Below are positions 9,987 through 57,529 of a DNA stretch of 64,000 nt, piece by piece. The notes beneath the pieces are model-generated. The model had not been told where the DNA came from. It saw only the letters and a list, made by a program, of their open reading frames with translations, and ran no database searches. This stretch comes from Tubulanus polymorphus (lineage: Eukaryota > Nemertea > Palaeonemertea > Tubulaniformes > Tubulanidae): assembly GCF_964204645.1 (NCBI RefSeq), contig NC_134026.1, forward strand, positions 8,133,450 through 8,197,449, in the 5' to 3' direction. Position 1 is the first letter of the stretch; each line of letters begins with the position of its first letter. Position numbers and translations under genes: made by a program.

Positions 9987-9994
9987 GTACGAGG

Positions 9995-10150
9995 GTATGC
10001 TGACTGAGTATTCTGATTGTCTGAGAATGTACTGACTGTTTGAGAGTGTACTGACTGTCTGAGAGTGTGCTGACTGTCTGATAATGTCCTGACTGTCTGA
10101 CAGTGTACTGATTCTCTGATTATGTTCTGACTGTCTTAGAATGTTCTGGA
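9995..10150. repeat. 19-bp minisatellite remnant upstream of receptor copy 1
   Basis: Degenerate copies of GTACTGACTGTCTGAGAGT lie directly 5' of the receptor start on the minus strand. They are open in the receptor frame, adding a Ser/Gln/Thr-rich repeat in front of MNSTQ. The same unit precedes receptor copy 2 and forms a larger array at 12.5-13.1 kb. Confidence 0.85.
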
Positions 10151-10286
10151 ACTGACTGTGTCTTCTCGAGGATCGGAAAATTAATTCAACATAAATATCA
10201 CGAACTGTCTTTACTAAAATTCGTCTGTGAGATTCATTGTTAACAGCGAATAGAAAATCAATTCTCAGAAATCTAACACAGGACAT

Positions 10287-11877: not shown

Positions 11878-11889
11878 GATTCATGAAAA

Positions 11890-17953: not shown

Positions 17954-19087
17954 ACTGAAATATAGAAAAACAGCCCGCAATACGTTAATATCGGCACCGT
18001 AACGTGCTGCCCCCTACCCGGAGATTCAGAAATGAAGTCGAACATGGTAGGCGAAGATTAAATGATTCAAGGCCGTGAATTAAACATGATACGGGCCGAT
18101 TATAATAAGTACACACCTTGATAATGTTCTGATATCAGTGCAACATCGAATCTTATTTCTAAATCTGTTTATTCGCGTAAAGTTTATTGTTTTCCACACG
18201 TGCCAGAAAGGAATAAACCGGAAATGGGTGGCCGGACGGAGCACTCCGTGATGGATAACTCCTAGATGAAGCGGCGAGGCTGCCTCCGTTTTCTTTGACA
18301 TCAGAAAAGTTCAGTAACACAAACTAAATTTAGTTTGTTTTTTTTCAAATTTTTGGTTGATATTAATAAAACACATATAGGTGGTTGGTGTATGATTTTT
18401 CGCTTCTATCATTAGATATGAGTCGCGTGATTTAGGTATGATTATGACGCACAGGATACGATAGATGGCGAGCTAGTAGTTTAAGTCTCAGCGAATTGAG
18501 TAGCAGAACCCCGAAATAATTTAACGAATTTTGAAAAAAAGTTTTAACCAGCTTTCTCTCTTGAGTCAGTTCACAGTTCACAAAATTCAATTCGATAAGC
18601 GTTCATTATTGCTTGTTTTGGAGGTCAGTACGTACGCCTACGGAAGCCCGTCGGGGAGGGGAGCTGAAAATCCGTACAAAAAGTGCGTCACGACGAAACG
18701 TTCCCAGGAATTCCCCTCTCTCGGTCTTTCACTTCGTCGACCACGGTATATCGTACCCGGAACACTGAATGCTGGCCCTACGGGACGAGCATTCTCTTTG
18801 GGATAGTTGCTTTTGGGAGGGGGGGTTCACTTCTGGTATACGCAAGGGGCGATAAATGATGTAGACCTACTGAGAGCGTGGGGAGGGGGATTAATACCCG
18901 AAAGTCGAGCGCGTGCTTAATGTACGCGGCTCCTTTCCTCAGGCACACAGGTGATCGAGGGCCACCCGGTCCCCCACCTTCCCTGAGTTAGTTACCACCT
19001 ACAAGCCCTTCAGAGGCCCCCGGGGATGCCAAGCGTCCCTCTCCAGAGTTCGTCACAATATTTTGTTAGTAAAAATACGTTATGTTA
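17954..19087. other. HGH1 upstream region, no gene seen
   Basis: Should contain the HGH1 promoter and non-coding first exon (the minus-strand text near 18000-18300 is a candidate). A G-rich stretch at 18800-18900 and the frame at 18531-18806 show no family features. Confidence 0.35.
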
Positions 19088-32000: not shown

Positions 32001-32321
32001 TTCTTTCTTCTCTTCGACAGCAGCAACAATTTTATCTTTCTCAGGCTCCGTATCCTGATATTCTTTATTTGCATCCGTATCATTTTTATCAGCAGCTTGT
32101 TCAATGTGACCTCCGTTAATACCCTGAGTTTCATCATTCTCCATAACCTCCTTTACCTCCTCCTCATCAACCTCCTCATCGCCATGATGATCTCCATTCT
32201 CTCCGTTTTTACTCACTACCCCCGAATCATCGCTATGTAACATTTCATCGTGTTCACTGTTATCGATTTTGACGTCGTCAGATGGCGCTGCTGTTGTTCT
32301 CTTCACGTCGCATTCTTCCAT
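26037..32321 (-). CDS. Giant acidic protein with repeated basic Phe/Gly/Lys motifs; unrecognised C-terminal domain
   Basis: One uninterrupted frame of 2,094 codons, ATG 32319-32321, stop 26037-26039. An acceptor-like TATTCGCAG ends ten bases before the ATG, so a 5' UTR exon probably exists. Most of the chain is Glu/Asp/Pro/Thr-rich and disordered, with tandem runs (VEETPVEETPVDETP near 600-700; DSKDDVDDSKDD near 345; PDETGPDETP near 1620). About twelve basic-aromatic motifs, typified by RASFGLGKKxKKKK, are spread at roughly residues 140, 180, 215, 490, 520, 755, 795, 1050, 1080, 1345, 1385 and 1420. The last (KKKKKRFFSFNFFKK) looks like the MARCKS effector region. A Lys/Glu single-helix-like segment spans about 1680-1765. 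The final 170 residues look globular (RLYFANQPIRDED, RWLSEEKGLRKWMDQQ, GWWDAAIQRP). I do not recognise the family; membrane or cytoskeletal scaffolding is inference only. Confidence 0.85.
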   Translation of the reverse strand: MEECDVKRTTAAPSDDVKIDNSEHDEMLHSDDSGVVSKNGENGDHHGDEEVDEEEVKEVMENDETQGINGGHIEQAADKNDTDANKEYQDTEPEKDKIVAAVEEKKESDDLAVNGSDETRGAIGDKQTGDEQLSLGAKIRASFGLGKKGNKKKQKEVKDEKVDTPPTEENNKQKDKRKLRASFGIGKKSKKKKKDDDETKNEDKKIDKKGKVHLSFGVGKTKKDEEDLNDKTVEDNKENEETDKKEDDIEMNDENEVKLEEYEPDTKPGVETSEISEYEPDTKPTITAAAVADDETEKELTLQFTEKPEISVQSQPIAVYTDHIEYEPEDKDDMIEERSDSKDDVDDSKDDVDDSKDDIDDSKDGIDASKDEINDSKDEKDDSKDKIEMDENSEKPTEDELLESDAIHEDQQIVDKPEEPVTEVISEVEVSPDVEVSPEVEVSPVAEVSPVAEVSPVIVINSDMTQQDEDKPDKSVAEGENKEKKTGHKIKIPFFHFGKKKKKDKKKKEKTEDKEKAVGFRASFGFGKRGKKKVKVIDESQENPVTERTERSVSLEPPAPIQYTPPQLVEIPEQTTTEETPAEKTFVDGTPINETPEEEVLVDETPIEETPTEATTAEERPVEETPVEETPVDETPTEEVPVKEIPAEEAPVETHVEEIPIEETRVDEPTEDTHVVVTPIAEAPVEEAPAPVEEIPVEHTPELVEPAEETTPAPIEEIPVEVKPVAETSEGKLVDEKDGDKDAKETPDSDKHKFGIHLSFGKGKKKKNRKKKKKPKDEETEKKEEDSQHKKKKFHLHLGLGHKPKTTDPKDEEKVEDRKEIEPDEADVNRFQAEDNETITAEVPIPLQESTPTEEETSLLKEVDSELAKTELQPKDEPLNLDESDMLPVGDMSICIDNILPEPEQNTEVSQPIIDDTSKHEDDITIVTEGAIAIEEPEPIITDELEKPLPEATAAEAANEDENADVDVDDIVIVMEGAVAVDEDEIKTNDGLLKENDETEVVKPVTNEASVEDEKDENAADDAVDEDEDTQKPEKSKDRSKSPFRFHFHLPHFGRRHKDKKQYDKPEEKDHKEAEKKKKKKKKKKLSFGKKDKVQPEIVVTDQNKTVDIEKETEQAEAASAVPEPAAIVVDINEEVEVKPPEPEIPVKIEVPEPDIPEPEVHDELDSVEPVIDTELPLEEETVETVKEEFSSKFIDPDDENLSNKGEEILIEPTIPVLIIEKVEDDEPITESAESVTESAEPINAEPISGSADVVKTVDLDDGFDTEIILEGAVAIDESELNIEEEQPIVQIDNSIVEAFPESKEDEPNDEPKEDEDKNEEKEDEKEPETENERAPKRKLFASFGWGNKKKQKKDEDQVVPVSKEDETEKEESKPKKSGIRASFGLGKKNKKKPDGTKDRNEDDTDEKHDKDDKKKKKRFFSFNFFKKNPKTKEDPKPEEEEEKKLEEPKPSTSTTPEQRNVDDEQVVPNVNETDVQFAERIANEIVDEVLEEVKEQLSSKPVTEEDITDQLQEDEPDTAAELATLTTPEIKVDEVEDLPEELDEPETEEIQHHPEPILIVELKDDDSPEIRIEETIPNETIAPDETIAPEETPGPDETEPDEKQAPEETPARDETHVPDETGPDETPVPDETPAPDETGPDETPAPEETGETDRNEEIEIVAPVVELKVETAPVKETEEDKLKKEKEAADKDKKDKKKNRDREKAEKKEKQKKEKEAKALAKKEEKERKEKEKKERLEKKRLEKEKKQKDKKDGKKKEKEIEAEEVVKPQTEPVISQTPNSDYSYPSGETGPVDTSTPKSQSDDNNIPPPVPTSEPPPLTPVVTIKPPKSEQEVEQELPYITPLIVAGSEPPSAAATPVKTAAPVKPAVRSPEIEVIEPVAPPTKSDSLPTPKPETAEVAPKHHSLAVPKHDENSNKTGTIRLYFANQPIRDEDKRAPDAFILPVLFNQYSHIYLTNPQYEESRWLSEEKGLRKWMDQQKRRIYGAAIKIKRRSDGNGLFVKFRYQDGLIGRNNCYYGDVTIQKNADDVAKVLHCVIYTDDDEIYTLELKTPPSHQENHMDGRLNRHHIPSGAKGWWDAAIQRPHNKIQVYSI

Positions 32322-33470
32322 AATGTCCGTCTGCGAATAATGGGTAAAATATCCAACGAAATAAAAGCAGCTTCAAAGTGAAAAGCAAGCTGAGCGAGTT
32401 GTGTATTCGAATATATCTCTACTCTCCTTGGTATAAACACCCTGCAATGAGATAAAGAGATAGAGAACTAGAGGGATTAAACAGTCTAACTGTATTCAAC
32501 ATGTGCGGCACAGCACTAGACTAACTCATATAATAAAAACTATTTTATTAATTTGCGCAGTATTAAATAACCACGAGTACACCTGATTTCTTAGTCTATA
32601 CCACCATCCCCATACCACCTCATTTTACCATGCTAATACCACCATATACTTCCTAACCCTACCAATATACCACCCCTATACCACTCGCCCTACCATACAT
32701 ACCATCCCTATACTATCTAACTCTACCACATTACACCCCTATACCACCTTACCCTACCATACGCCTAATACTACCTAACCCTACCATAAATACCACCTAC
32801 CATCTCATTCTCCCGATCCTTATACCACAATCCCTATACTACATCATCCTACCATACGTATACCCTGTCATACATCACATACCTACACCACAATCTCTAT
32901 AACACCTTATTCTATCTTACCACCCCTATATACTACCTAGTAATCCTAACAGGCCTACACACCATCCTTAAACCCCCGTTGACACAACAAACAGCTGAAC
33001 ACCCAACTCTTGATACCCTTGATACCCTAACTAATGTATACTAGTATGAAATTTAGAAGAGGAAAATGAAAAATATTTTATTGAGCGCATTTGATGACAA
33101 TACTGAGGTAGAACATATGTTACCTCACTTGCCAGTGTCAGTATTCTACCGTTGTCTATTTTATCTGTTTTCCGTTATTTATGTGGAATTTTAAACCATT
33201 CAAGCGATTTCTAGTTATTTTTACTTTTATTTATCGTCATAAAAACCGCAGGTTTTCAAATCAATTCAACGCGAAGCAAAATGCACAAAATCGACCGTAA
33301 AATTCTCTCAAATTTTTAAATCTAGGATAAGATAAAGAGTCGGGGACCCTGGAAATATTCAATCTTAAACAGCACATGTTCTACAGGAGCCAACAGACAT
33401 AGAAAGCGAACAAACAACGCACTGACAGACTGTTGTGCACTGCAATATAATCAGCGCTGCGCAATTCCCT
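32322..33470. repeat. Upstream region with CTATACCACC-type degenerate tandem repeat
   Basis: From about 32575 to 32960 the text is a decayed array of a unit near 26 bp (ATACCACCTTACCCTACCAT). The rest is AT-rich with no gene. The first 100 bases probably include the promoter or non-coding exon of the big minus-strand gene. Confidence 0.6.
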
Positions 33471-35891: not shown

Positions 35892-37012
35892 GTGAAATAC
35901 AAGTGAATCAAATGATTAAACTACAGGTTTATATACAACATAAGTTACAAAATTACAAGTGCTAAATTCTAAGCTAATTACAAACCAAGTATTTAATTAC
36001 AAACTAATTATTTGAATACATTTAGGATAAAGGATGAGCCGTTTTGAAATAATTGTTGATTTAAAGAGGGTCGTTGCGCTTTAATAAACAGGGCCTCCCT
36101 AATTTTACAGTCGAGATCAGATGAACCTTTGTCTAGAATTTTGAATTTGTTGTTACTGAATTCCTGATCACAAGTGTGACAAATTGCGAGATGTTGTCCA
36201 ATCGCAGAAGTCTTTGATCTGTGTTCCTTAATCCTGATGGCCAAATGTCGTTTAGTTTTCCCAATATAGGAAGTGTTTATATCACATAAACAATTAAATT
36301 TATATATGACTTTAGCCTTCAGCGATTTAGGGGTAGCACATTTCAAAGAGAAAAAATTCTTAATTTTGGTCGTAGTGAATGCACATTTCAAGTTGATTTC
36401 AAAATTCCTTTTAAATAGATATTTTAATTTTCGGGCAAATAGGATTGACGGGTTACCAATATACGGTAATGAAATGAATAGATCAATTCCATCTTCAACA
36501 GGTTTCGGTTGAGGTTCTGAGTTCTGTTTTGATTTCAAAAATCTATTAATACATTGATCGATGACATGAATAGGAAACGCATTAGATTTAAACAGATTTT
36601 TCAAGAAATTGATTTCTTCTGAAAAGATGGTCCAATCACTGCAAATATTGTAGGCACGAAAAAGCATGGTATTGATGAGTCCTATTTTCCATTTATACGG
36701 ACACATGGCGTTGAAGTTCAAAAGTAGGCCTGTGTTGGAAGCTTTCCTGTACACTCGAGATATAAAGTCACTACCGGTTTCTAACGGAATTTGTATTTCG
36801 GTATCGAGAAAAGGTAATAGATTAGGACCTAGTTCAAAAGTGAATTTAAGGTTAGAATGGAGGCGATTCAATTCTTCAAAAAATAGTCTATAACTGGATA
36901 CATTTCGAAATATGCCGAAAATATCGTCCACGTATCTCAGGTATAATGTAATTTTGTAACTTATGTTGTATATAAACCTGTAGTTTAATCATTTGATTCA
37001 CTTGTATTTCAC

Positions 37013-39810: not shown

Positions 39811-40767
39811 TTATTTGAGTGAGTTTCGACAGCGGATTTTCAAACAGAAATATTCACGAATTTCCCGTCCCAATAAAAGATATATGTAAAAATTAACTAT
39901 ATAGTTACACAATTGGAACTGAGCCGAAATATCTAAAAGAAAATTTGAGATTGGTAAAAATACAGCAATAGAAGTTGGAAGTGTAAATATTGCAAATGCG
40001 AGTGAAACTGTTACAAGCATTATTGTCGTGCGTTTTGATTTTGTAGTTTTCTGATCAGACGAAACAATTTTTGAACCTCTGAATAACTGAATTATTATAA
40101 CAGAATTTGATGTTAGAATCAGAGATAAAGGCAGAAGAAAAACATATATTACATATTGCATAAAAAGTAGAAATTGATCAGACAACTTGTAGTAACATCC
40201 AAAACTATCCAAAAAATTCATTACTACTGAAGGGTGAATACCGATTACTAGTGCGTTCATTACGAAAATGAATGCAATGGCGCATCGGGCGAATCTTGGT
40301 GTACATATCAAACGAGATGTGAATGGGAAGAGCACAACTGCCGCACGTTCTAAAGATATTGCTACTATTAACCACGCACTATTGGCACCGATAGAATCTA
40401 TCACATATTCGAAGATTCGACAACTGATCAGCGAATCCAACAAGGGTATTGGACCAGTTTCCACGTGCAGTAAGACAAACTGTAAAACGGGCATAAGCGC
40501 AAAACCGATACAGAACATAAAATCGCTGACTGATAAAACGATAAGATAGTTAGCGTAAGATAAACTGCGGAATCTGTGACTTATCATAATCAGGAAAGTA
40601 GCTGAATTTCCGAAGGCACCTAACAGGAACATGATGGGTAGAATGGCCAGTGACACAGTACGGTAGATACCAGACTTGTTTTCTACAGACATTAGAACGA
40701 TGTTGATGAAAGATCGACCACCGACAATCTGCATCTCAGTAGAATTCAGCATTTGTTCAACACTCAT
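39811..40767 (-). CDS. Rhodopsin-family G protein-coupled receptor, copy 3 (diverged)
   Basis: Single exon, 318 aa, start MSVEQMLNSTEMQI (ATG 40765-40767); an alternative internal start would give a product beginning at MLNSTEMQ, aligned with copies 1 and 2. It keeps GNSATFLIM in TM1, LERAAVVLFPFTSRL after TM3, the KTTKSKRTTIMLVTVSLAFAIF block, and NFYIYLLLGREIREYF in TM7/helix 8, ending CRNSLK. Clearly paralogous to the pair at 9-12 kb but more diverged in TM3, ECL2 (SFGCYYKL) and TM5. It sits about 28 kb away on the same strand and lacks the upstream 19-bp minisatellite. Ligand unknown. Confidence 0.9.
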   Translation of the reverse strand: MSVEQMLNSTEMQIVGGRSFINIVLMSVENKSGIYRTVSLAILPIMFLLGAFGNSATFLIMISHRFRSLSYANYLIVLSVSDFMFCIGFALMPVLQFVLLHVETGPIPLLDSLISCRIFEYVIDSIGANSAWLIVAISLERAAVVLFPFTSRLICTPRFARCAIAFIFVMNALVIGIHPSVVMNFLDSFGCYYKLSDQFLLFMQYVIYVFLLPLSLILTSNSVIIIQLFRGSKIVSSDQKTTKSKRTTIMLVTVSLAFAIFTLPTSIAVFLPISNFLLDISAQFQLCNYIVNFYIYLLLGREIREYFCLKIRCRNSLK

Positions 40768-41439
40768 GTTAATTCGAGTAACAGAAACTTTAAAGTAGAA
40801 TAATCGAGTTTCCCTTGTGTGCTCGTCAGATTTTCATATAGGATTGATCAATGATCGTGATAGTCTCCTCTCATATATTGATGAACTAATTTCACTTTAT
40901 GCGAAATCCTCACAGTTCTATAATAAAGTCTTTTTATATCTGTACATGAATAGTTATTCATCATTCATTTTTTTAGATTTCGTAAAGCTATTCACAATTC
41001 ACACTACACACTGGTTGACCAATTATCGTGCCATACTGTTTAGATTGGGCTCACGTACTGTCAACTCACACTAGTATTGATGAATCAATTTTACCCGAAG
41101 GGTGATACAGATCTTATTCATGACAGCTTTTCATCATTTGATTTGTTAGATGAAGTTTATTGTTGACTTACAATTTGGCACATATCAAATATCAATTCTC
41201 AGAAATCTAGCACTTATATATTATATATATTATATACTATTTCTATTCAGGAAATATCGGGTGGGGCACGCAGTCTTGAATGAAATCCTATTTCAGTATA
41301 GTTTTTTTTATAAAACAAAATACATTTTCGAAGTTTCGCGTCGACTAAATGACTAAATGTCCTGTCCAGTTGTCCGGTTCAGCCACTGGCAGTCGAGCAT
41401 GGAATTCCCCCAATGCGGAAGTAACTGTTTGTTTACAAC
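40768..41439. other. Divergent spacer, receptor copy 3 / GNAT-PARP gene
   Basis: AT-rich, no gene. It contains CAATTCTCAGAAATCTAGC (about 41193), shared with the 5' flanks of the other receptors, so this is the receptor's upstream region. The last 60 bases (CCAATGCGGAAGTAACTG) probably hold the promoter of the plus-strand gene. Confidence 0.45.
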
Positions 41440-44400
41440 ATGGCGACTGTAGTACCCGAATGGGCAATTTGTGCTCACTTATCGCCAGTAAATATATCCA
41501 GAGGAGCTCGCGGAAGCGTTGACACCGACGCAAATATGTCATGCAATCATAATGACACATATTCATTCTCCACTGAATACATGGTCGGTGCGCAGCTCGA
41601 CCAAAAACAAGATTTTGTGCGTTCCAAAACATCATCCAGATCCACCGCCGGCGCCAGCACCACTTCCTCCTCCGCAAACAGTTCGAAAAAAAGTTGTCTT
41701 TCGTTAACACCGCTTATAGTGGACTTTCAAAGATTGCTGAAAGGCCAGAATAAAGCCAAAGACAAAAAGGAGACAGATTTTGATGCGACTAATGGCGTCA
41801 TTCCAGGGGTAAGAAATCTCGGCATTCAGTCATGCCAACCTTTCATCGCATCCTGCCTGACCTTCCTTGTATTGAAAATTCAATCAGGTTGTATTTAGAA
41901 CCCTGCCATTAACAAACTTCACAGGCTTAATTTACGACACTTGTAGGCCTATTTGGAATGAAATGGCGTTAATCTAGCTGATCACCAGTTAGCCTAGTTA
42001 CCTAATCGTTGGTGGTAAGCTTATATGTAATCGGATGACTCATGATAATATCTGATCGTTTTAAACTAAACCACAGACAGGTTACTGACTAATTAGCTTG
42101 CCACAGGCCTTGAATTTTGGAAAATCAGAGCTACAGCAGAAGCATTTTACCAAAGACCATCAGCATCTCAATTTGCCTCCATAAATTTTAAAACCCATGG
42201 CAAAAATGTTGATACAGAATAAAAGTACTGAAGAATATTATTATAGATAGGCCCCTATAGAAAATTTGAAATCAATTGAATATAGAATGAAATTTCACTT
42301 CACATTGCTCGAGATGAAAATTTCAACCAACCAGTAGGCCTATTAAGTGACTAACTTTCCTTAATCAGTTAAGCCTATGTCTTTAAGATATCCAGTTCTG
42401 GAACTAAACTACTTTAATCTGTGGGTTGTGGTCTTAGAACTGTAGTTTCATATTTCTCGAATTGTTTTATCAGGTTTCGAATAGAGAGTTACTGCACGCT
42501 GTGATCGGATTATACGATGTATCACTGTCTGAAATGACTCCCGATGTACTGTATAATACCGTATGTGAGAAACTGGCTCGAACTATCATTCTCGTTAGAG
42601 ACATACAAGGTAAACTGTACTTGCTTAATCCGTATCGAGATAAATATGGCAGATTTTGACGTGGTGTAATGTGGTAATTCACGGATCTGTTACTACTTCA
42701 TCCTATGAAGGATTTTTGTATACTGGTTGATTGTAACTCCGTTCATGGTCCAAATGTCCAGTATGGGCAGTCCAATCTGGTAGAGTTACAGCCTATAGGC
42801 TCCTTGGGCTGTCCATCATAGACTATTATCATATGATTCATTCTTTGTGTAATAAGAGTGTTGATCTTGTAATGTGCATACAGAAATGTTAAATTTTGTA
42901 TTTGTATTGTAGAGAGTTCTATGAAAAATATTCATTGATTTGTTACAATTTAAGTGGCATAAGATAATTTCTGGCGGTTTGATTTGAGTGATATTTCAAG
43001 CTGCTATGGGAGAGTTTAGGCGGCATATGATTGATCTTTTTGATTTGCTGGCAAGGTGCATTCGCCTTCATTAAGATCCACCGAAAATGAATTAGCAAAA
43101 ATTGGCAATAGTTTTTTTAGCCGGATTTTGTCTCTCTTGTATAAATATTGTTGTTCTCATCAGACTTAAGCCGACTTGAATGTAAATATGTAAATGTTTA
43201 TTGCAACAGAACTTTTTTGACATTTTTGGCTCGCAAATACTTACCGTTGTGAGTGCTGCTCTTACATTGTCTTTTACAAAATAAAATTATTATTATTATT
43301 ATTATTATTGTCATTTTTTTGCGATTCAGATGTCGTAAGTGAATTAGAAAAAAAACGTGAGAAAGCATCATCGGTAAATGGTTCTGAAAAGGATAACAAT
43401 TTTGAAAAACAGCAAGAAAATGCGGAAACATCTCGCGTGAATGAGGAAAATAGTGAGAAAGTAAATGGCAAGATGATAAATGGAGAGACGAATGAGAAAG
43501 AATCAGGTTGGTATCTGAATATTTTTCGTGATTGTCCGAAATTATACCTTGTATCATAGGTGTCTTATCTTTCCGATATCTGAAGGTGAAACGGAGGATG
43601 AAGAGAAAAATGAAGAAGAAAATGACGATAATGGAGATGAAGATGAGGATATTTATGTCGACGAGGATGAAGACAAACCTGCTACATTCGCCTGTGTTTA
43701 TAGCGATACAGAAGATGAAGAAGATTCTGAAAGGTCTGTATATACAAAATGTTAACGGCCTGTCAAGGTCCCTACGACTCCTTGATTCCTTTAAAACTCC
43801 TTCTAAATGGAAAATGCTTTTAAAGGCGCTTGAAACTGCTTTGATTTGAGCAAAATGTCCAAACTTCTGTATAATCCCTTTAATTTTTACCAGTAGGCAA
43901 TTAGAAATTTTTCATTAGACTACATCTTAATTGATACAGTTGGGACCAGAATATTTTTTACCCAATTAGGCGGTTGCCAAATTACAAACCAAGTTTAGTT
44001 GTTGTTGTTAACTAGTAGTGAATAGCCCAATTTATTTCCAATTGGGTTGACCTCTGAGAAGTTGATAGATGTATTTGTCAAATAAACTTTTTTTTCAAAT
44101 ATATATATAGCTTTATTTCAGGGAAAATTTTACAATAAGTTATTTTGCTAAGGTCAAAATTGACATTAATAGCATAGTTATAAATATTTAACATTCAAAA
44201 AACCGCTATGTAGAAAAAAGACTATTACAATTATTAAGAACAAAATAATAATAATAATGATAATAATAATAATAATAATTATAATAATAATAGTAATGAC
44301 AAAAATAATAGTATCAATAATAATGACAATAGTAAAAAAGAAAATATTGGTTATAATAATTATTACAATAACAACATCACCACTATCACACAGTATTGAT

Positions 44401-47400
44401 CATTTCACAGTCGGTAGTCATAATGAGATTAGTAATTATTTAGATTTGCAAATTTTGCGGTTAGTGAGATAATACTGATGTTAGTATTATAGTTCAGGTC
44501 TGGACTACCAAACAATAAAGATTTACATTTATCAATAAGTCATTTTGAAAGGAATTGCTGCATTGTAGATAATTGAATTTCATTAGCAAGGTCCTGGAGT
44601 AGGCTATGGATTTTATTGCGATGAGGAGGGTGCTGGCATTTTAAAATTAGATGAACTGTATCGAGTCTTTTGTTGTTGCAATTAGGGCAATTTGGATGAA
44701 GCACATTGCTAAAATTATGGTCATATATAGCTGTGATCGTAAAAACATGTAGTCTACTTAGAGACATTTCTTCTCTACGATTTAAATTTAATAAACTGGC
44801 TGCCAGTATATTTGTATATTCTCTTAAACGCATAAAGCAATTACTTTTTGATGAGTTTATAAAATTCATTAAAACGATAAACTTTCCAGTTGTCTTCAAT
44901 AAAATTTTTGGCGAGGCAACACTCGAAATGTGAATTGTTAGTGTTTAAACCTTTCAGTGCTGACTAATTGATACCCTATCGTGCTGGAGATAATTTGAAA
45001 ATTTTTAAAAATTCCACCCTAGTGTGTTGAATAACGGGAATACCACTATAGTGCGTATACACCGCGGCGCGGTGTATCGTTAGTTACTAGTATTTCACTA
45101 TGTTTGACACGTGCTGCCATCTTTCAATAGAGATAAAAACTAATTACCAATTACACCAATACACCGCAGTGCAGTGTACTAGCAAAATCCATCACCAATT
45201 CATACACCGCACTGCGGTGTAGACACACTGACAGGATTAATACACAGAAGTTTATATTGAATAATAACTGTCTTGTATAGCTCGGATATTTTTCCAATTA
45301 TATGAACTTTCCTGAAGAACAGGATTAATTTTGTTTCACATTCACTAACGCTCTTAGAAATTGATCATGATTTATTTTCAGTGATGAAGATGATGATGAT
45401 GATGATGACGATGAAGACGATTTCTCACTCGGTATAAATACGTTTCTGTCGATGGTGAAAGAAAGACGAAAAGAGCGATTGAATCATACCGGAAAATACG
45501 AGTCAAAACACGTTCATATCGAAAACCGAATCGTCGGCTGTATCACTTACGACAAGAAATTCTGGTAATATTCCTATCGAAAATGAAAGAAATCTGTGAC
45601 CCAAATGCAAAAATATTACTCGGCAATGTCAAAATATTTCAATATCTATTGTTTTTTTGGGCCAGTTCAGATTAATTCATTGTTGACTGGTCGAAGTCAA
45701 GCCTCTGTAAAAATAGACCAGTTAATCAGCTAAGACTGCAAAGGTGTGCAAAGATGATCTTGAAAGACGGTTTTGATCTGTTAGAATGAGTGAATATATC
45801 ATTAAAACAATCACCCATCCAAATCTGCGTCCGACTGAAGTAATCTGTGAATTGAACTGAATTCTGCACTGTCTGCGATACTTAGAATTATGAGTATTTG
45901 TTATTTCAGTCGTGGCCAGGAACGAGTAATACATTTAACGCTTATAGCTGTGCGTAAACGATTCCAGGGATGGGGAATAGGAAAATATCTACTTCAAGTA
46001 AGTTGTAAATGTGGCTTTCTTCTCAGTTGCATACATTCGATAGTTGATTAGTCTGAATATCGCACAAGGTACGTGCGAACCATTGGAAACAACAGCTATA
46101 AAGCTTATAAAGTTTATTTTCAATGATTAAATTAATAATAGCCTGTTTTGTTTTTTGCAATCAGGTCTCAGGGCCACTTAAAAAAGCAATTACATAGGAT
46201 TCACATGATCTGCCTTTAGTAGCAACGATTCCCATTTTCAATAACTAAATTACTACAATTTGATCCTGATTTTCTTCATGAAACTGGAGCCGGGACGATA
46301 TTCAACCCTAACATCAAATATTATCCTCGGTCTGATGATGGATTTGACTTTTCTTTTCCAGCAAGTGAAAGACCCGATGGTTGTTGGTCAGTACGACGCC
46401 GTAGTCGTGCACGCTGATAATTCAGCAATCGAATTCTTTCAAAAATATGGCTTTAACGATGATATGGTGCTCAATAATAAATGGACGTAAGTAACGTTGA
46501 AATGAAAGTGAGCGCACATTTTGTCAAGAGTGTGTCAAGGAATCATCCAAGTTGGCTCATTGCTGGTGAAAGCATGTTTCAAGAATGGGCTTACCCCTTT
46601 CTATAATTGATTTATATCGTACGTGATAATGTACTTAGAAATTTAGAAAATAGATAGTTTGAATGTAGTGAGTGTTCAAAATCAAACATAACCCAATTTG
46701 TCAAAAGAAATTCTAAAATAGGCTTTCATCCTCAGAATGAATTGTATTTTGTTATGTAAGTGTATGACAAACATTTGAATTGCCCAGTCTTTTTTTTTTT
46801 AAGTGTCAAATATGAAATTAAACTGGCATCAAATCTACCTGCATCCCAGAATGTCCTTGTATTTCTTTGAATGGTTTGTGTTAGTTTGGTTATTCATTTA
46901 TTTTCAGTGAATTTGCAGAACAGTTTACCAACTGCACGTTAATGTGCTTCTTACCTCAGTTCCACAGTGAGTATCACGGGCCACACTTTTCATGCATTCT
47001 ATAGGCCCTATTACATGATCGAAGATACTAGGCAATATTAAATCAATCCCAAATGTTTTGACACAACCGCCAATTGTCAATTTTCAGGTCATAGTCTTTT
47101 AGGAAAAACTACAAATGAACTGGATTTAGCGAGTATGGATAAAGAGCTTAAAAAATGGTATGAAAAATCTTTTAAATACTCTTTGACTTTGGCCACTAAT
47201 ATGAACTATATTTTCATTTAGAGATGCCAGCACCAAATAATATATAATTTCTCGGCATAAACTCGATTTGTTGCCTACCATCATTTGCACTGGCGGTCCT
47301 ACGACCTTGACATTCGTCATCGATAATACTTAACTATGTACAACGGAAAAAAAGTTGAAAATGTGGGTGTACAAAGTATGCTATTTTTGGTTTGAGGGGG

Positions 47401-48686
47401 CACGTGTTTTTTTCCTTTTCTTTTTTTATTAGACATATTGTGATGCACTCGGATTTCAGAATTGATGAGAAACTAGAAATGAATTTCAAGTAGCTATAAA
47501 GCTGTTATAAAGATTGAACAGGTTAATTCTTTATAATCATTTGGTTTCAGGCGCGATAAAACGCTTGAAGCATACCAAGCTCAAGTTTCATGTATTACTC
47601 GATACAAAAATGAGATTCTTCATTTGAGGAAATTGGTGAGTTACATTCATTTAAAGACTTTATGCTGAGATAAACAAATTGCCTATGATAATAAGGTACT
47701 GGTTATTTGATTTTGATGATGTATTAAAAGTTGAAGATCCACCCACTTGAAGTCATTATTTTCACCATGTCACCAGTTAATCAGTTATCTCTCACCAATT
47801 TGTTGGCCTAAAATGGTTCTGGTTATGCCCGTCTTACTGTTAGTACCTAGAAATCTAGGGCTGGGCCAGTTTTATAGAACAGTTTTCGTCCAACATCCAT
47901 CCGTCTGCCTTTAGCCAAATCCAGTCTTTGTGGAAAGTTTTCATTATGATTTGATATATGATCTTGATTATGTATGTATCTACCGTACATTTCTGCATTC
48001 ACCAAGGGGCAATGGATAGTGAAATCATATTTCCATTATATTGATATTATATTATATTTGGGATCTCGGCATATTTAAATTTTTACCACATTCAATTGCG
48101 AAGTTGTAGCTCATGACATCTATGATTTTGGCGAGTTTCATTGGTGTCTCAAAGCCCATATTTATCAGGGGGCATTGAATTTTAGAATAGTCAGATTGTG
48201 GAACATTTCAGACACCACTTTCCAAGTAGGCATGGTGTCTCTGGGCCTCAAGTTTAAATAGGCGCAGAGTGGCCACTGACTTGAAAACTCATTGAAAACT
48301 CAGGGATTCAGAAAGATCTGAAAAACTCAGGAAATTGACGAATTTTACCAAAAACTTGGAAAAACTCAGGGAATTTGGATAATGCTATTGACCACGTGTT
48401 TCTTTATCAGTACATAATTCAATGAAAGATGAATGAATTGTAACATTTTAAACTTAGAAATTTCTCTGGTTAACTCAGGGAATTCTGTGTTTACAATCAC
48501 ATGGAAAAATCAGGGAAAACCCGGGAAATTTGTAAATTGGCGGAAAGTGGCCACCCTGTTACACTTACACCGGTATCACGCTGAATTTTCTTTAATATTT
48601 GGATGAAATACGAATCTTACACATTGATAACTCGCATAGTGAACACGCTTTGTGTGACTGTGATTTTGATATGGAAGTGTCTTAAC

Positions 48687-48722
<36 letters not shown>

Positions 48723-50066
48723 GCACGAACAGCCATGTAGACGATCATAAATATGGTATGGTTATAGATGTGCGTGTAATCTACTGTAAGCAGGCGTGAA
48801 GCTATATTTGACAGTCTGACCGCTATTACGAAGTAGGCCGGGAAAGAGTTAATACTGTAACTCGTGCATTAAATCCGTCAGTTCGTTCAAGATTGTTTTG
48901 ATAAATGCGTGTAGTGTAAAAACTTGCCTTTCAATCTATTTCGAAAACGTTTACTATGTCATCAGCGTCATAAAAATCGATTTCTATAGGGCCGACTGAA
49001 AGCTACCTGTTTATTTATTAGCCGGTTAATTTCAATGTATTTGTGTTCCACCTGACCTGTCGTTAATGAAACCAGATTTCACGATATTCAAAATTGTTTT
49101 AATCTCCTTATTATGTGGGTCATATAACACTGAATACGAGGAGTATGTTTGTGCGTTTTAAGTGCACAAGTCTCGTTTCTTAATGTGGTTACTGGATCTG
49201 TGAGGATCAGCTACATTTTGCTCTTGTAAGTATACGAAATGAAAATCACAAGCACGTTTGATACGTGTATCAAAGATCAAAGATCAAAGAAGTTTTTTAC
49301 CAGAGTTACCGGTATCATTGATTATTCTTTTCTTGATCGGTTCAGAAAAACGTTTTATGATATCTTTTAGCTTGTTGAATTAATTCAGAGGTCTGACAAG
49401 TACAAATTTTTTTGGTTATCTTTTAATTCGGGTATTTCAAAATAGCATGGGATATTTTTTCTGGTATAGGTGAAGATATGATTTAAACAATTAAAGATTG
49501 CAACTAGAAACAAGAAGAAACGTCAAGTGTTCTACGATATGCACTACTGCACTAAGAAACATTTCTTGGAATTTCGTTTCATGATGATTTATTGCATAGG
49601 CCCCATGTACTTTAAAAAAGTTGTGATCAAGAATTTAATTCCTTGAATTTCAAGAATTTTTTTGAAGTCTATTTTGACTTGGTTCTACGTTGATTTGCTT
49701 TATCCACGATATATATCTGATAGGTAAAGATCATTTTCGTTTCAAGGTTACGCAACAGGAAAAAGATATTCTGAAATTAAAAGCTGAAAAATTGAACGCT
49801 GAACAAGACAAATATGAACTAGGTAAATTTGTGTTTCTTATTTTAAGAATGGTGAGATTTATTTGATGATGATGTAAGTGGAATCTTACTTCAACTAGGC
49901 CTATAAGTTCAGGTGACCCCTGGATAGGTTTGATAGACCAGTGTTATTTTGGACCTTTGGTTTAACTCAATATACTTTCATCCAGGTAAGACCCCTGGTC
50001 TAATGAGCGGGAACCTGAATGTATGATTTTATCATATATAGGACGGTGTAACTATTAAGTTAAAAC

Positions 50067-50103
<37 letters not shown>

Positions 50104-53100
50104 TGTTGGTGGCTTGTTCTTTCAGAAAAAGATTTTCTAAAGTTTCGACTTTCCTTGACCAGGAATTCTCTTTCCGGTTCCAATGATTGCCGTAAGTTGA
50201 AAACGAAATATAGTTTTTGAAATCAAAAAAAGAAATCAATTAAGACGTAAATAATTGGACAAAAAATATTTCACAAATTTTGAATAATCTCGGAAAATGA
50301 AACCGCAGTGTGTTGATATAGGTGCTAGTAAGAACAAAATTATCCAGGGACCCAGTTCCACAGTTCTGAGTTAAGATTTGACTCAGAGTTAATTCATGGA
50401 AAATGAATTGATTTTAACTCACAGAGTTAACAATAACTCACGACTGTGAAACTGAGCCCTGTGAGATCATTGTCAATGCAATGTTTTATTTACGTTGATG
50501 ACAACAAATTGTGATTTCATTATTTATAAAGATGTTTCAAATATCTTGAGATTGGATTGATTTTTCTTGAACTGAAATTTTCCTTCGCATTTCTATATAG
50601 TAAACATAAAAAATCAGCGAAATTATTCTATTTTGTTCTTTGTGAATGTGCGCAGTCCATTTAACAGATACTAGCAATATTGATTGATGTTGCGTGTCAC
50701 TAATACACAACCTCGTACGCGGATATCCATTATCCGTCGCAAACAAAAGGACATTTCATCGTATATTGTCGTAGCGCCGTACGTCGGCGCTGATTAAATA
50801 TTTGCTACGTCCCCTCTGTGGTGTACGGTTATGACGGAGCCTTCGTTTTAATCCGGTTACAGCGCAGGCGATGAAGCTTTATTGCTGCTGTATCTATAAA
50901 TACGGACCGTTGAAATTAATAAGCGATCTAGCGTCAGTATGAAACTCGGGATCTCAATTGGAGCTTGGTCGGTGTAATTTGTTCGAATTAACTCCCACTG
51001 CATATGCATCTGATACCTTCTAGGGGCACTCGGCCTTATCAACGCGTCAAATGGGTGTATATTGAATGCGATTAGCGTCGTCGACGAAGACCACAAAGTT
51101 TATGGTCTCGCGAATGGTAATAAGTAATGATAATAGCAATAATAGCTTGCCTTCACTTCGATGTTGCAGTTTATAGCGTTGAGAAAGACGACAGCAGCCA
51201 AACTGAACAGTTAATCAGGGACTTAGAACGACAGTGCGGTATTAAACAGGACTGCGAACAAGAGAAAAAGATGGAGCACAAAGACAGTTTCTTCAGCGAA
51301 GCGGTGGATATCCCACCAGAACTTAGCGATTTGAACGTTATCGGTAGGTAAAAAAGTTCTTAACTTGATGGGGAATGTTATTGAATAGTGAAGCTAATGA
51401 ACTAATAATGCTGCTGAATTTGACTGAAAAGTTTAATCGGTGGCATCGATCATCTGATCAAATCGATCACTTTTATCTTTGAAAAAAATTGATATGATGT
51501 ACAGCTATTCAACTTGAAGTAGTTTTGACCATTAGAAGGATTTCTATTAAACAATGCATGAAAGACAAACAATGTTATGATACCTAACATTACAAGAATG
51601 ATATTGGACAAAATTTTTGTAATCGTATAGGGAAAATTAACATTATCAAAACACATTGCCCGCAACAGTGCCAGCATCCTTATTATAATTTTACATAGAT
51701 GTATTTCCATGAAAAATTCCCTTTTTGTTCAATTGCAAATAAAAATCTGGGTTGGGAAAAAAGATCTGCTGCAGTTGCAAGAAACCCACTGTATTAAAAC
51801 TGCAGTGGTTTTTTGCACAAAATTCACCAACAAGTGGCATTTTTAGAGGTTTTGCACAAATTACGATTAAAACCATACGCGTTGAAAATTAGAATCATCA
51901 TTGGGACGCATTTTTATACATTGATTAGTTGATCAATATCACTTTTATTCTGATCGTAAATCTACGGTACATACATATAACCAGTAATGGTATATAGACA
52001 TTTTCATCTCTCCATGTTTTGTGTGAAATCATTTCTCGTTTCATTTGCTGTCTAGAGAAGACAAGATATATGGTCTATCCGAAAGATAACCAAGAACCCT
52101 ATGACCATATGGTCGATGCGCAGGACTTTTTTCGCGTGACGGAAGACTTCAAAGCAAGCATGAAATCAGATAAATCAGTCACCCAAAGTTGTGAAGTAAA
52201 GTCGATCAACAAGGTAGAGATGTGGATTTGATACGATGCCAATTGTAGGGTAAACCTTGCAACTTATAATACCAGTAGCCATTTGGTAATAGGCAAATTG
52301 TAGTCAAGATATCTCAACCAATAACTTTTCTTCAACTATTTAGGCTACTTTAACCCCAGGAGTGGTTGAGAGGTACGAAACTAAAAAAAGATTACTGAAT
52401 CAGCCGTCAATGCTAGCACGACTCTATTACTGTGGTTCTTTGGAAAACCCAAAGAGATTATCCGAAATTCTCAAGTATGGATTTACCGAAAGAGGTAATT
52501 ATTCAGAGCACTGGATTAATCCTCAGGGGCCAGTTCCATAGTCATATGGCTTACGTTTTTAAGACCAGTCTTTAGTTTGTAAGACCAATTTAGTTCTACA
52601 GCCAATCTAACAACTTAAGACCAGTCTTAAGATTTCAGACCACTTTTAGACTTAGGTTATGGCTAAGCAATTCGGCCCTGGTTTCAACTTCCAATTATCC
52701 TACACTTTCCATCATAGTCTTAACAGTTCAGGGGGCCAGTTGCACAGTGGTGACTTAAGTCAAAAAGTGGTCTTAAATCTTAAGACTGGTCTTAAGTTGT
52801 TAGATTAGCTATAGAACTAAGTTGGTCTTAGAATGGTCTTAAGTCTAAGACATGACTATGCAACTGGCCCCTGATTTGGATTATGCCCTATGCGATGTAT
52901 AGCAATATCATGCTTAAACATTTCGTTACAAATGTACTTACATTTCAGATTTTACTCATGGCGAGTACGGAAGAGGTTTACATTTCTCATTGTTCCCATC
53001 AAAAGCAGCTAATTTTTCAGCAGTAAGTGTACTAGCGTAAAAAGGTTTTTACATTTCGTTGATTGTTCAAAGCCCCAACAATGCAACTTTTGATTATGGT

Positions 53101-53851
53101 GACTTTGTATCGTAATTTCAGCTCGGTAAGCTTTTACTCGCCGAAGTATCTATCGGTAAAGTAGAGGTTATCAAGAAGAAAGACCACACGCGTTCGTCGG
53201 CCAGTTCCGGATACGATTCTGTAGTGGTAAGCAATTAAGTAAACAACTGACAATTGCAGTAGGCCTAGAACCCGCTTAATCGGGATCATCTGATTATATG
53301 AAATTTATTTGGATTCGCATTATACAGATTATGAGAAATCATATGTTTTTAGAATTTACATGATATACTTCTAGCGAGGACTGCGGATAATATCCAGAGG
53401 TCAAAATTAAAAATAAACTGGGTTGGACTCCTGGTTACTTTGATCAACAATTAGTTCTTGTGTAGCTACAGTCGACTCCGCCTATGGTGGCAATGCCGGG
53501 ACTGGCAAAATGTTACCGATATAGACAAATACCTGTAAAGATTTAGATTTTTTACATTAACAAACAGTAGGGACAGAAAAATGTTTTATCATTCCACTGG
53601 TTTGAATGGATTACTGAAAAGACCAGTACCACTATAGGTGGAGTCTACTGTATTGATCTAAGTATGAAGCATGTTCTACAAGACCGATGAGTTACTCTTT
53701 TCATTTTCTATTGGTACGACATAACTCTTCATTGCAGACTCCTGGTAGGCTGTTGAAAGATTCCCACGATGCGGACATGTGCCAGGAATACATCATATTT
53801 GACATAAACCAAGTTCTACCATTGCATGTTCTGTCGTACGCAATTCACTAA
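41440..53851 (+). CDS. GNAT acetyltransferase - coiled coil - PARP (ADP-ribosyltransferase) fusion protein
   Basis: Eighteen exons: 41440-41808, 42474-42609, 43330-43506, 43586-43733, 45382-45564, 45910-45997, 46362-46486, 46908-46966, 47088-47157, 47551-47635, 49747-49822, 50126-50191, 51170-51343, 52056-52213, 52344-52494, 52949-53022, 53122-53226, 53738-53851. Every junction has GT-AG sites and all phases agree, giving 785 aa. Order: Ser/Thr-rich N-terminus; small helical segment (124-168); acidic linker; GNAT domain about 310-430 with the acetyl-CoA loop Q-G-W-G-I-G (357-362) and ADNSAIEFFQKYGF (385-398), GCN5-like; coiled coil about 450-515; PARP domain about 640-785 with LYYCGS (C668), YGRGLHF (H700) and QEYIIFDINQVLPLHVLSY (E765). 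The usual ART triad is His-Tyr-Glu; here it reads Cys-His-Glu. Substrates unknown. I recall no named protein with this architecture. Confidence 0.85.
43285..43309. repeat. (ATT)n run beside exon 3 acceptor
   Basis: About eight ATT units end 20 bases before the exon 3 acceptor of the GNAT-PARP gene and form part of its polypyrimidine tract. Confidence 0.9.
44245..44905 (-). mobile_element. 3' end of a LINE (non-LTR retrotransposon), 5'-truncated
   Basis: The minus-strand frame 44899-44540 contains HPNCPNCNNKRLDTVHLILKC...HRNKIHSLL, the Cys-rich block typical of the C-terminus after the RT domain of jockey/CR1-type LINE ORF2. Downstream on the same strand, after about 200 bases of 3' UTR-like text, lies an (ATT)n tract (plus-strand AAT at 44245-44300), a usual LINE tail. 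It sits antisense in intron 4 of the GNAT-PARP gene. Confidence 0.65.
44949..45236. mobile_element. TTAA-flanked MITE (piggyBac/Kolobok-type), copy A
   Basis: Flanked by TTAA on both sides (44945-44948 and 45237-45240). Ends ACCTTTCAGTGCTGAC and the reverse complement CCTGTCAGTG. It contains three palindromes of the form TACACCGC..GCGGTGTA (about 45058, 45161 and 45203). Homologous, in inverted orientation, to the copy at 58.1-58.4 kb. No coding frame. Confidence 0.75.
48265..48558. mobile_element. hAT-like MITE in GNAT-PARP intron
   Basis: Ends CAGAGTGGCCACT / AGTGGCCACCCTG, the CAGGGTGGCCA type of inverted terminus common in hAT-derived MITEs. The interior has repeated AAACTCAGGGAATT modules. 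No clear 8-bp target duplication, so probably old. Confidence 0.55.
48686..48722. repeat. (AAT)n microsatellite
   Basis: About twelve AAT units in the intron between exons 10 and 11 of the GNAT-PARP gene. Confidence 0.95.
50068..50102. repeat. (TGAT)n microsatellite before exon 12
   Basis: About eight to nine TGAT units end 24 bases before the exon 12 start of the GNAT-PARP gene, close enough to include the branch-point region. Confidence 0.95.
50345..50461. mobile_element. CAGTTCCACAGT MITE family, copy 1
   Basis: Begins CAGGGACCCAGTTCCACAGT and ends CTGTGAAACTGAGCCCTG (inverted). The interior is rich in GAGTTAA/TTAACTC palindromes. In a GNAT-PARP intron. Confidence 0.65.
52524..52680. mobile_element. 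CAGTTCCACAGT MITE family, copy 2
   Basis: Begins CAGGGGCCAGTTCCATAGTC and ends TAAGCAATTCGGCCCTG. The interior is built of AAGACCAGTCTTA palindromes. Forms an inverted pair with copy 3, 50 bases away, between exons 15 and 16. Confidence 0.7.
52729..52873. mobile_element. CAGTTCCACAGT MITE family, copy 3
   Basis: Begins CAGGGGGCCAGTTGCACAGT and ends CATGACTATGCAACTGGCCC CTG. Same interior AAGACTGGTCTTAAG palindromes as copy 2. The two copies can fold on each other in the transcript. Confidence 0.75.
53469..53650. mobile_element. Tc1/mariner-like MITE
   Basis: TA-flanked element of 182 bp with inverted ends CAGTCGACTCCGCCTATGG and CAGTAGACTCCACCTATAG. It lies in the last intron of the GNAT-PARP gene, 87 bases before the final exon. 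No coding capacity. Confidence 0.75.
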
Positions 53852-55743
53852 TTGCCCAGCCAACAAGAGTACGCCGGTCAACGCTGACGCTAAAGAATCG
53901 TGAGAGATTTTGTTCACTGACTGAAAAAGTTTCTTGTTGTGTGAAAAGATTTTGTGATAATTGTGGGAATGCCTGTACATAATGGCCTTGTATGGTCTAT
54001 AAAGTGAAACTGCATTGATATATGGAATGTCAATATATCAATACCATGGGCGTCCCCAGGATTTTTCAAGAGGGGGGGGGCAAATTTCTCTTTAAATGGG
54101 TCTAACCCAGATTTCAAATTTTATAACTTGACAACTATCATAGTCCCTGGTCCCATCATTATACTTACAGCAATTTTCGGACGTTAAAGTTGTAGTCCAG
54201 TCTATAGAATTAACTATTTTTGATCTCAATTGCAATCATAGCAGAAAAATTGTGTACTTTATGAAGTATGTAAAAAGGTATTTTCCATCATTCTAAAGGG
54301 CACTATCGCCCAATTAGGGGGTCATTCTGTCCCCCAACCCTCTCTCGGGACGCCCATGAATACATGCAGTAGACTCCTCCCATCTCATATTCCTATTTAT
54401 TTGGTATATGGTTTAACTTATAACTTGGCAATATTTTGCCCGTTTCTACTAAATAGAGTAAGGAGGGCTCTATGTTCTTTTCAGATTTGAAACAAATTCC
54501 GCATTTTTATTTTAAGATTATTCATTATTAATCAGATTTAAAGAATGAACAAATACTACGAGTTACTAGGAAAATACGATGGTGCTGTAGATATACATAC
54601 ATACTCAAAAGTAAACCTGTCCCCTTGGAATCAAACATACATTAGGAGTTAAATATTCAATTCCGATGTTACTAAAATCTAAAAAATCTATCTCATCAGC
54701 TTTGTGAATCTCAATACATATACATGAAGAATCTTGAACTTTTTGCAAGGTTTCCTTTTGAGATATTTTGAATATGACCATCAATGAACATTGCATCTTT
54801 TCGAAAAGTATTAAGTTACTATTCCATCCAACCAACTATGCCATCCCTCCGACTCATGATCCTATAACAAGACCATGAGTAGTGTATTTTTTCAATATCA
54901 AAGTTTATTTAGTTTCTTATGAGCAAAACTTTATGTCGCCATATTTGTACTATATAAATGACCTTGTATTTATGTTTTTAAAGAAATATATATTTTATTG
55001 AAGTTTCGTCTAAATACCTACATGTTGATTCAATCTTTGAGGAAAAGTAAAGAATATATGACGAAAATGTCTCCGAGGCCATTCATTGATGAGCTTCCCC
55101 TCCATGTGATGTGTAGGGGCTCGTCTGGCAATGAAAGCATCAATAAAAATTCCTGAATTTTCATGTTGGTACATGTAACACATCGATGAATCGTCCAAAT
55201 AAGTACTTATTCAACACAATGATTGGTTATGTCGAAGAAAACACGTGTACATGTAGTATTTGGCAATGCAGTGCTCTTGGATTTATGTACTGTATTAAAT
55301 TTCGCCTCACTCCGACATGGCTAACTTGGACAAAAACGAAATCATTCGTCAGACTGCCTAATGTTTTTTCCTATCCATAACTGGGACTTTGCCAGTCAGT
55401 TTGTCCGAGTTAGGCGAGGTCTTATTCATGTGTATGAACTGAATATTTGGATGGAAATTCAATTTCATACCAGACTTCCTACTAATAACTGTCGATGCAA
55501 TGATTTGCTTGTCAACAGCAGTTTGATGTAATGATGATATTCCACTGTATTTGAAGTCCTCGGAATAGACGTAAAATCTCCACGGATCAAAGAGTTAACA
55601 CTAAGCTATTTTTGAAGTACGTAAACACATCTTTAATTAAGTTGTATTCATATAAACTAACTAAGATAGAACAGATTTTCCAACATTATAATAGATGTAT
55701 TATACACTGTACTTGCAGATAGGTACATAAGTAATAGAAAAGG
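53852..55743. other. 3' flank of GNAT-PARP and spacer to LRRC42
   Basis: Holds the GNAT-PARP 3' UTR (end not certain; AT-rich with several AATAAA-like sites), a MITE at 54045-54358, and another TGTCCGAGTTAG/GGCTAACTTGGACA inverted pair near 55316-55420. Minus-strand frames at 54605-54835 and 55010-55198 have no features. Confidence 0.4.
54045..54358. mobile_element. MITE with CATGGGCGTCCC ends and 5-bp target duplication
   Basis: Inverted ends CATGGGCGTCCCCAGG and CATGGGCGTCCCGAGA are flanked by AATAC on both sides (54040-54044 and 54359-54363). The left subterminal part has a G-run (GAGGGGGGGG). It lies in the probable 3' UTR of the GNAT-PARP gene. Confidence 0.75.
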
Positions 55744-57529
55744 CTACATATATAGTTTTAACAAATCTGAATCATCCTCACTATCGCCAGTATTCTCATT
55801 GTATGATTGTAATACCGATGCAGAAGTACTATCGAATGTAGTCTTTTTGTTCTTATTGAAACGACAAAAATTCAACTCGCGTATTGGAATATAGCAATTC
55901 ACATCTTCATCCTCAGCCTGATGCAACTTCTTAGTTTTATCTAAAATTTCAACACAGTAATCATTAATTACTTAAATTGAATGCAAGCTAATTGATACAT
56001 TGTATATTTAACTAGGGTGAATCGCGAAAGTATTTCTATCAAAACCTGCTTCATGTGGATCATTTGGGACTGATCAAATTATTCAAGCAAATTCATATTA
56101 TACATAACCAGAACAATAAAGGTCGAGTGGCCAGTAACGTAAAAATAAAATAAAATCTTGGTAATACTGATCAAGATTAAGTTGGTTTACATATATATTT
56201 ACAGAAATTAATTCCTTGTTGAGTGGGTCTTGGTTGACACCAGCTTTTAGGTTCAACAGTACTCCAGTCTTTCAATATATCTGCTGCCCAGCCTTCATTT
56301 TCAATAGTTTCGCAAACAGCAGTTGCCTGGGACCTGGGTATAACATCGAAGCCTGCTTTTTTCAGACCTTGAACGCCAGTTTTCTGGACAGCAGTGTCAC
56401 TTAAGTCGATACATTTCAAGTTCGGAAATCGTTTAATGAAACGGATTCCTGCATCGGTCACCAGCTTGTTTCCTGAAATCAGCGTTCAACATACACAGTA
56501 AGACAAGTTTCTAAACAAGTCAAAAACTAAATATAGTTTTACGGATACGACCTGCCAGATGAAGAATCTCCAGTTTCTTAAGGCCACCTTTCTTTGCACC
56601 TACTGGAATCGTCAATAGACGTAGAGATTTGTCTGTTGTTCCCGATTTGACTAGTGACAAATACTCCAAACTGAAAAATTCAACGTGCCAAATGAAGGAA
56701 ACATTTTTGATTACCGGTACATTTAAAGTAGGGTCCTTATCTGAAACTTCCCTCAGAGACTCATGTACAGCTAAAGTCCTTTAAAACGCTATTGTTGGAA
56801 CCAATGAAAAATATGGCGATATAAAGAATGGCATTTCCATTGAAATTGAGCCATTTGTTCTGCGAAAAATGTTGATGTTAGGTGAGCAGTGGCATTAAAA
56901 AAGATGGCATTTTATAATGGACTTAGACTGTAATTCTTTTTAAATGTTCCAACATCTGGATTCAGATAGTTATCAATTCCAATGCTACCAAGTAAAGCAG
57001 AGTTTACTGGAACATATGTTACTCAATGCACATTAACTGCTCTTGCCTATACGTACTAAAGGGATGAATCGTAAAGGAAAGATTACAAATAACTTTCTCA
57101 CTTTGGCAATGATTGCGAAATATGCAGGAGAAAATCGTGATCATCCCCGAGCGTACAATAAGAAATGTCCAATTTGCGTAAATGCAGAAATACTGAAAAG
57201 TGTTCCTCATACAAGCACAGCGAAACGTTAGATCTGCTGAGATTCATACTGGATAGTACGAGTTCTTGATATGTGTCCGTAAATTTAGACATAGCCAGCT
57301 TCGAACGTGCATCAATCGATAAGAATACGTGCTTCACTTCGGCCATTCGAAAAATCTGGCGACCAACTTCAACCGGAAAACCTTCGAACGATTCTACATT
57401 GTGTACATTGATGGCGACATATTCCATAGCAATTTGAAATAATTTCCTCGGCGAGCGCACGACATTGTTAAGGTCATTTTCACAACTGATCGCGCAATTA
57501 TCACCTCTTCTCTTCTTCACACCAGACAT
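55744..57529 (-). CDS. LRRC42: Leucine-rich repeat-containing protein 42 (LRRC42)
   Basis: Four minus-strand exons: 57529-57102, 56670-56552, 56472-56203 and 55940-55744; phases agree; 337 aa (human 428). Diagnostic blocks in family order: GFPVEVGRQIFRMAE, the first LRR LRKLDISYCTLGDDHDFLLHI, PNLEYLSLVKSG, KKLEILHLAGNKLVTDAGIRFI, LKCIDLSDTAV, and ENEGWAADIL (human EGWADQIVLQW). The C-terminus is Lys/Asp-rich and short, ending SDLLKLYM. The function of the family is not established; LRRs suggest protein binding. A TTGCAG acceptor about 30 bases before the ATG implies a 5' UTR exon upstream. The shorter length comes from a reduced N-terminus and tail. A missed exon is possible but no phase gap demands one. 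Confidence 0.9.

Follow-up and report, generated by a model that had tools for sequence, protein, structure and literature searches.

We analysed a 64,000-nucleotide stretch of the genome of the nemertean Tubulanus polymorphus (contig NC_134026.1, positions 8,133,450 to 8,197,449; hereafter the window), in which a gene at 41440-53851, on the + strand like all of its features given below, is predicted to encode a GCN5-like GNAT acetyltransferase domain and a C-terminal PARP fold with an altered catalytic triad. Using the splice sites and reading frame seen on direct reading of the letters, we reconstructed a gene model of 17 exons, with 2292 coding bases including the stop and a product of 763 residues. 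Each of the 16 introns is GT-AG, the phase is consistent throughout, there is no internal stop, and the chain runs from an ATG (A at -3, G at +4) to a TAA stop; the position, strand and phase-consistent exon chain of an original prediction for this DNA, made from the letters alone, are thus borne out. That prediction had counted 18 exons and 785 residues, figures that the rebuilt model corrects. Through residue 362 the two models place the motifs identically, so the discrepancy lies downstream of it; the surplus of ~22 residues is unnecessary for the chain, although the introns were not systematically searched for a further small exon.

Exon 1 (41440-41808) begins with the start ATG and encodes residues 1-123, exon 2 (42474-42609) residues 124-168, and exons 3 (43330-43506) and 4 (43586-43733) a charged and an acidic linker, respectively; searched alone, the N-terminal 228 residues matched nothing to E 0.1. 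The GNAT domain starts in exon 5 (45382-45564), behind a poly-Asp run, and continues through exon 6 (45910-45997), with a core strand and the acetyl-coenzyme A (acetyl-CoA) P-loop, and exon 7 (46362-46486), with the remainder of the core including ADNSAIEFFQKYGF at residues 385-398, a segment already singled out in the original prediction; Pfam supports all three exons and the alignment to GCN5 also exon 6. By that alignment, exon 8 (46908-46966) supplies a GCN5-like end strand (TLM.C).

A Pfam search of the whole protein gave seven matches to E 1, three of them below cut-off. The strongest evidence for the GNAT domain is Acetyltransf_10 at residues 294-400 (E 1.8e-12; score 47.8 against a curated cut-off of 23.6; profile positions 9-109 of 128), with Acetyltransf_7 and Acetyltransf_1 likewise above cut-off at the same place, so that the domain proposed earlier is confirmed by profile search. 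The three matches under their Pfam cut-offs, FR47, Acetyltransf_CG and BUD22 (the last on a charged stretch, residues 153-289), were set aside, and all six GNAT matches in NCBIfam are below cut-off. Against the PDB, the GNAT region retrieved 25 sequences to E 0.01, of which the top seven are named GCN5 and the eighth a histone acetyltransferase. The best match is Tetrahymena GCN5 (E 1.2e-6), and the alignment continues as far as the TLM-bearing strand close to the GCN5 domain's end.

The motif QGWGIG stands at residues 357-362 (45965-45982), exactly where it had been reported, and fits the GNAT P-loop consensus Gln/Arg-x-x-Gly-x-Gly/Ala as given in the available text of PMC4964394. The catalytic Glu of GCN5/KAT2 is missing: in the alignment, His346 (codon CAT, 45932-45934) takes the position of Tetrahymena GCN5 Glu122, the proposed general base, and the same portion of this GNAT review notes that for aralkylamine N-acetyltransferase and Naa50 the proposed bases are histidines (PMC4964394). 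Since His bases have been proposed in other GNATs, acetyltransferase activity of this GCN5-resembling half is plausible as judged from its residues. In that strand, the place of His346 probably corresponds to His120 of aralkylamine N-acetyltransferase.

Between the two domains, exon 9 (47088-47157) encodes a linker, exons 10 (47551-47635) and 11 (49747-49822) a probable coiled coil and its continuation, and exon 12 (51170-51343) an inter-domain linker. The best 28-residue window for a coiled coil, residues 467-494, is hydrophobic at seven of eight a/d positions and crosses the exon 10/11 join. However, 126 of 2000 shuffles of segment 430-560 match its a/d fraction, so that the coiled coil of the original prediction, at about residues 460-500, is modestly supported.

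That the GNAT and PARP domains belong to one predicted polypeptide is supported, and a single transcript over both is likely. As each domain spans several exon junctions, the joins within domains are backed by homology. The least certain join, exon 11/12, falls in neither domain and has no such backing; it relies on an agreeing frame and on acceptable splice signals at both ends of intron 11. The fusion claimed for this locus is supported for the predicted polypeptide, with a putative exon 11/12 join in the messenger RNA. We considered whether the locus comprises two same-strand neighbours: exons 1-10 or 1-11 would form a GNAT/coiled-coil gene, and a PARP-like gene would start upstream of exon 13, at an ATG at 51127 or at another site. 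This ATG is in frame and the frame is open into exon 12, which would permit a separate PARP gene, and the position of the join outside both domains and the length of introns 10 (2111 nucleotides) and 11 (1347 nucleotides) point the same way. However, an upstream in-frame ATG precedes four of the 16 internal exons, so the one at 51127 is not unusual; the coiled-coil register continues through exons 10 and 11, and intron 11 has acceptable sites at its two ends. There is also no AATAAA in introns 10 and 11, where a separate upstream gene would need to end. The latter argument is weak, because intron 10 has three copies of ATTAAA and intron 11 has one, and because the first AATAAA beyond the gene's own stop is ~1.3 kb away. 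On balance, we regard two separate genes as unlikely and retain the single gene in what follows.

The PARP fold begins in exon 13 (52056-52213; Pfam) and extends over exon 14 (52344-52494; a strand with LYYCGS; Pfam and PDB alignment), exon 15 (52949-53022; GRGLHF...SKAANF; PDB alignment) and exon 16 (53122-53226; Pfam) to exon 17 (53738-53851), which holds the end of the domain (QEYIIFD) and the TAA stop. The C-terminal PARP domain of the original prediction is recovered by Pfam above its curated cut-off (PF00644 at residues 586-737; E 4.6e-10; 39.8 bits against 26.7; profile positions 2-152 of 199), and with exons 10-17 alone as query the match reaches E 1.2e-11; NCBIfam gave no match to this half. 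With phmmer against the PDB, PARP4 (E 0.0013) and PARP1 (E 0.0045) come nearest, a placement that is not decisive.

In these alignments the triad, His-Tyr-Glu in active PARPs, reads Cys646-His678-Glu743. The replacement of the triad His by Cys646 (codon TGT, 52431-52433) is evident against PARP1 and against a PARP gene of the same genome (locus L004, E 0.004); the PARP4 alignment starts at Cys646 itself and hence provides no test of this position. His678 (codon CAT, 52981-52983), in place of the triad Tyr, is evident against PARP4, PARP1 and three genes of the same genome (E 0.004, 0.048 and 0.070). Glu743 (codon GAA, 53786-53788) is kept, a pairing that rests on the PARP4 Glu, the PARP1 piece there not being significant alone. 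The PARP1 alignment further places Ala686 and Phe689 at Ser904 and Tyr907, which we take to be nicotinamide contacts.

These replacements bear on the possibility that both domains are active, forming a double writer that uses acetyl-CoA and nicotinamide adenine dinucleotide (NAD). An intact GNAT P-loop, the retained Glu743 and a PARP profile score over the curated cut-off speak for it, but the triad His and Tyr are both altered, as are the two presumed nicotinamide contacts, so that the earlier statement that both enzymes modify proteins is not supported as it stood. Moreover, the accessible portion of PMC7532188 describes ZAP and RCD1, in which at least two NAD-binding residues are missing, as having no catalytic activity. 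Plant PARPs with Cys for His and a kept Glu do exist, namely the land-plant clade 1D PARPs, whose Cys-Val-Glu triad is said in the available text of PMC2964712 to have an unclear effect. Taken together with the retained Glu743, this precedent makes an altered PARP activity possible; two active writers seem to us quite improbable.

A PARP profile search of the same genome returned 20 exon-level matches at seven places, the gene described here being absent from the 20. By our reading, the seven places are six distinct PARP genes, one present twice, to which PARP1-, PARP2-, PARP3-, tankyrase- and PARP16-like labels can be assigned by motifs. The triad His and Tyr are kept in all six of these other genes and the Glu is visible in five, its position in the PARP16-like sixth not being resolved; as far as these sequences are read, the triad change is particular to the gene in the window. 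The PARP2-like gene was found twice with identical profile scores, at C3:3442120-3443051 (L002) and C13:17928-18859 (L003), with one copy on a chromosome-size contig and the other on a 244-kb contig; the second copy may stem from a recent duplication or be a residual haplotype.

When the full-length protein was searched against its own genome, 27 candidates were scored and 21 came out as matches, 17 of these being the exons of this locus. The other four were rejected as paralogues, being weak (E 0.095 to 2.6); two of them (L039 and C2:3179219) cover the acidic stretch and the first GNAT residues. No second copy was thus found in the 267.8-Mb genome among the best candidates, the only ones scored, and a diverged copy might escape such a search. 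With the GNAT region (194 residues) as query, none of 27 pattern-matching stretches in prokaryote genomes and none of 14 in viral contigs was confirmed; as these collections hold no animal genomes, the result says nothing on conservation in animals.

Acetylation and ADP-ribosylation are usually linked via distinct proteins with cofactor pools or targets in common, and the two folds on one polypeptide would make this link directly testable. Among the matches listed in the open-access literature, no paper describes a GNAT-PARP fusion in its title or abstract opening, nor is it found among those on mollusc PARPs and domain combinations, and no paper in the open-access library searched contains "PARP domain" and "GNAT domain" together. 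Word searches of the main text available for two PARP surveys gave zero occurrences of "acetyltransferase" and "GNAT" (PMC2964712) and a single "acetyl", in a reference title (PMC4245714). In the parts of three further papers that could be searched, "PARP" and "ADP-ribos" occur zero times (PMC7790372), "acetyltransferase" once, naming a purification tag (PMC10450202), and "PARP" zero times (PMC11788884). As far as the available text of PMC2993927 goes, Acetyltransf_1 is counted as partner-selective in four of five organisms, and PARP is outside the set. The novelty claimed for the combination was tested against open-access papers only, and none of those listed describes the pairing; animal proteomes, InterPro and subscription papers lay outside the search, and databases may already contain this architecture. 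What the locus appears to offer is two known folds in an order that we did not find in print, together with an altered PARP site.

Elsewhere in the window, three similar long receptor-like frames lie on the - strand (9036-10328, 10927-11880 and 39811-40833). The third matches the rhodopsin-family profile 7tm_1 (E 1.7e-17) and the other two are assigned by resemblance; together they look like a local receptor family. Also on the - strand are a frame matching DUF383 (17279-18013, E 1e-29), presumably an HGH1-type protein; an unbroken, highly charged and repetitive frame of 2111 codons with recurring ASFG-x-GKK-like units (26037-32372); and a frame at 36008-36988 that combines a YVDDIF reverse-transcriptase motif with a SYIGKTKRHL segment further on and resembles a Penelope-type retroelement fragment. 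The + strand carries an open frame of 955 codons at 4225-7092 with a Cys/His segment (CECNIW...CKHFFA) that presumably resembles a SWIM-type zinc finger. Within intron 4 of the GNAT-PARP gene, at about 45055-45230, several short near-palindromes built on tacaccgc...gcggtgta are clustered; a search for RNA families over 40000-56000 gave no match at gathering score.

The sequence of the predicted protein shows both domains, an acetyl-CoA P-loop and the altered Cys-His-Glu triad, and the reading that we favour as a whole, to which we give about an even chance, is a GCN5-like acetyltransferase with a probable coiled coil and a PARP-like module, degenerate or re-tuned, that may guide the protein. 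One transcript unit would encode the GNAT domain, the coiled coil and the C-terminal PARP fold; the coiled coil would let the protein self-associate, and the acidic stretch before the GNAT domain could contact basic partners such as histones. The GNAT domain would bind acetyl-CoA and acetylate protein lysines or amines, and His346 may serve as its base. The PARP-fold domain would make no ordinary ADP-ribose chains; by binding or scaffolding NAD, ADP-ribose, RNA or a partner protein, it might instead position the acetyltransferase or gate it. Several observations weigh against this reading: the exon 11/12 join outside both domains and the weakness of the AATAAA argument leave room for two genes, the a/d fraction of the coiled coil is matched by shuffled segments, the PARP4 alignment, the best-scoring one in the PDB, pairs Cys with Cys at residue 646, and neither the prokaryote genomes nor the viral contigs yielded a relative of the GNAT query with which conservation could be tested. 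Glu743, in addition, is kept, as it need not be in a purely dead domain.

A further possibility is that both domains are degenerate and that the protein is a scaffold without catalysis, as both sites differ from their references (in the GNAT half, His for the GCN5 Glu; in the PARP half, Cys for His and His for Tyr). However, the acetyl-CoA P-loop is intact and His has been proposed as a base in other enzymes of the same fold, according to the accessible part of PMC4964394; we hold a purely non-catalytic protein to be rather unlikely. A bolder reading is a conserved animal family in which a GCN5-like enzyme that uses acetyl-CoA is gated directly by a PARP fold that senses NAD or ADP-ribose and has an unusual Cys-His-Glu pocket. 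Such a family is a long shot; if it existed, DNA damage or NAD state would alter acetylation via one polypeptide.

Compared with known systems, the protein resembles GCN5/PCAF (KAT2) in its P-loop, in the TLM-containing strand near the domain end and in its best PDB matches, but differs in having His346 for the catalytic Glu, in the attached PARP domain and in that neither a bromodomain nor PCAF_N is among the seven Pfam matches to E 1. With PARP4 and the clade 1 PARPs (PARP1-3) it shares the Pfam match, the triad Glu and the GYDSV and EYIIFD.NQV segments, whereas the triad His and Tyr are replaced by Cys and His, and no WGR, regulatory, BRCT, VIT or vWA domain is among the same matches. The land-plant clade 1D PARPs, as described in the available text of PMC2964712, likewise have Cys for the triad His and keep the Glu; they mostly have Val where the Tyr is replaced by His here, and they belong to another lineage with another domain set. 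The pseudo-PARPs TASOR, ZAP/PARP13 and RCD1, which the accessible portion of PMC7532188 presents as inactive PARP folds with regulatory roles, have in common with our protein a PARP fold with changed NAD-site residues. Our protein, in contrast, retains the Glu and has a GNAT as its partner domain, and its seven Pfam matches include no TASOR, zinc-finger or WWE domain; with two triad residues altered and one kept, it is a candidate pseudo-PARP. If the PARP half is a sensor and not an enzyme, this acetyltransferase would join TASOR, ZAP and RCD1 as a carrier of a non-catalytic PARP fold.

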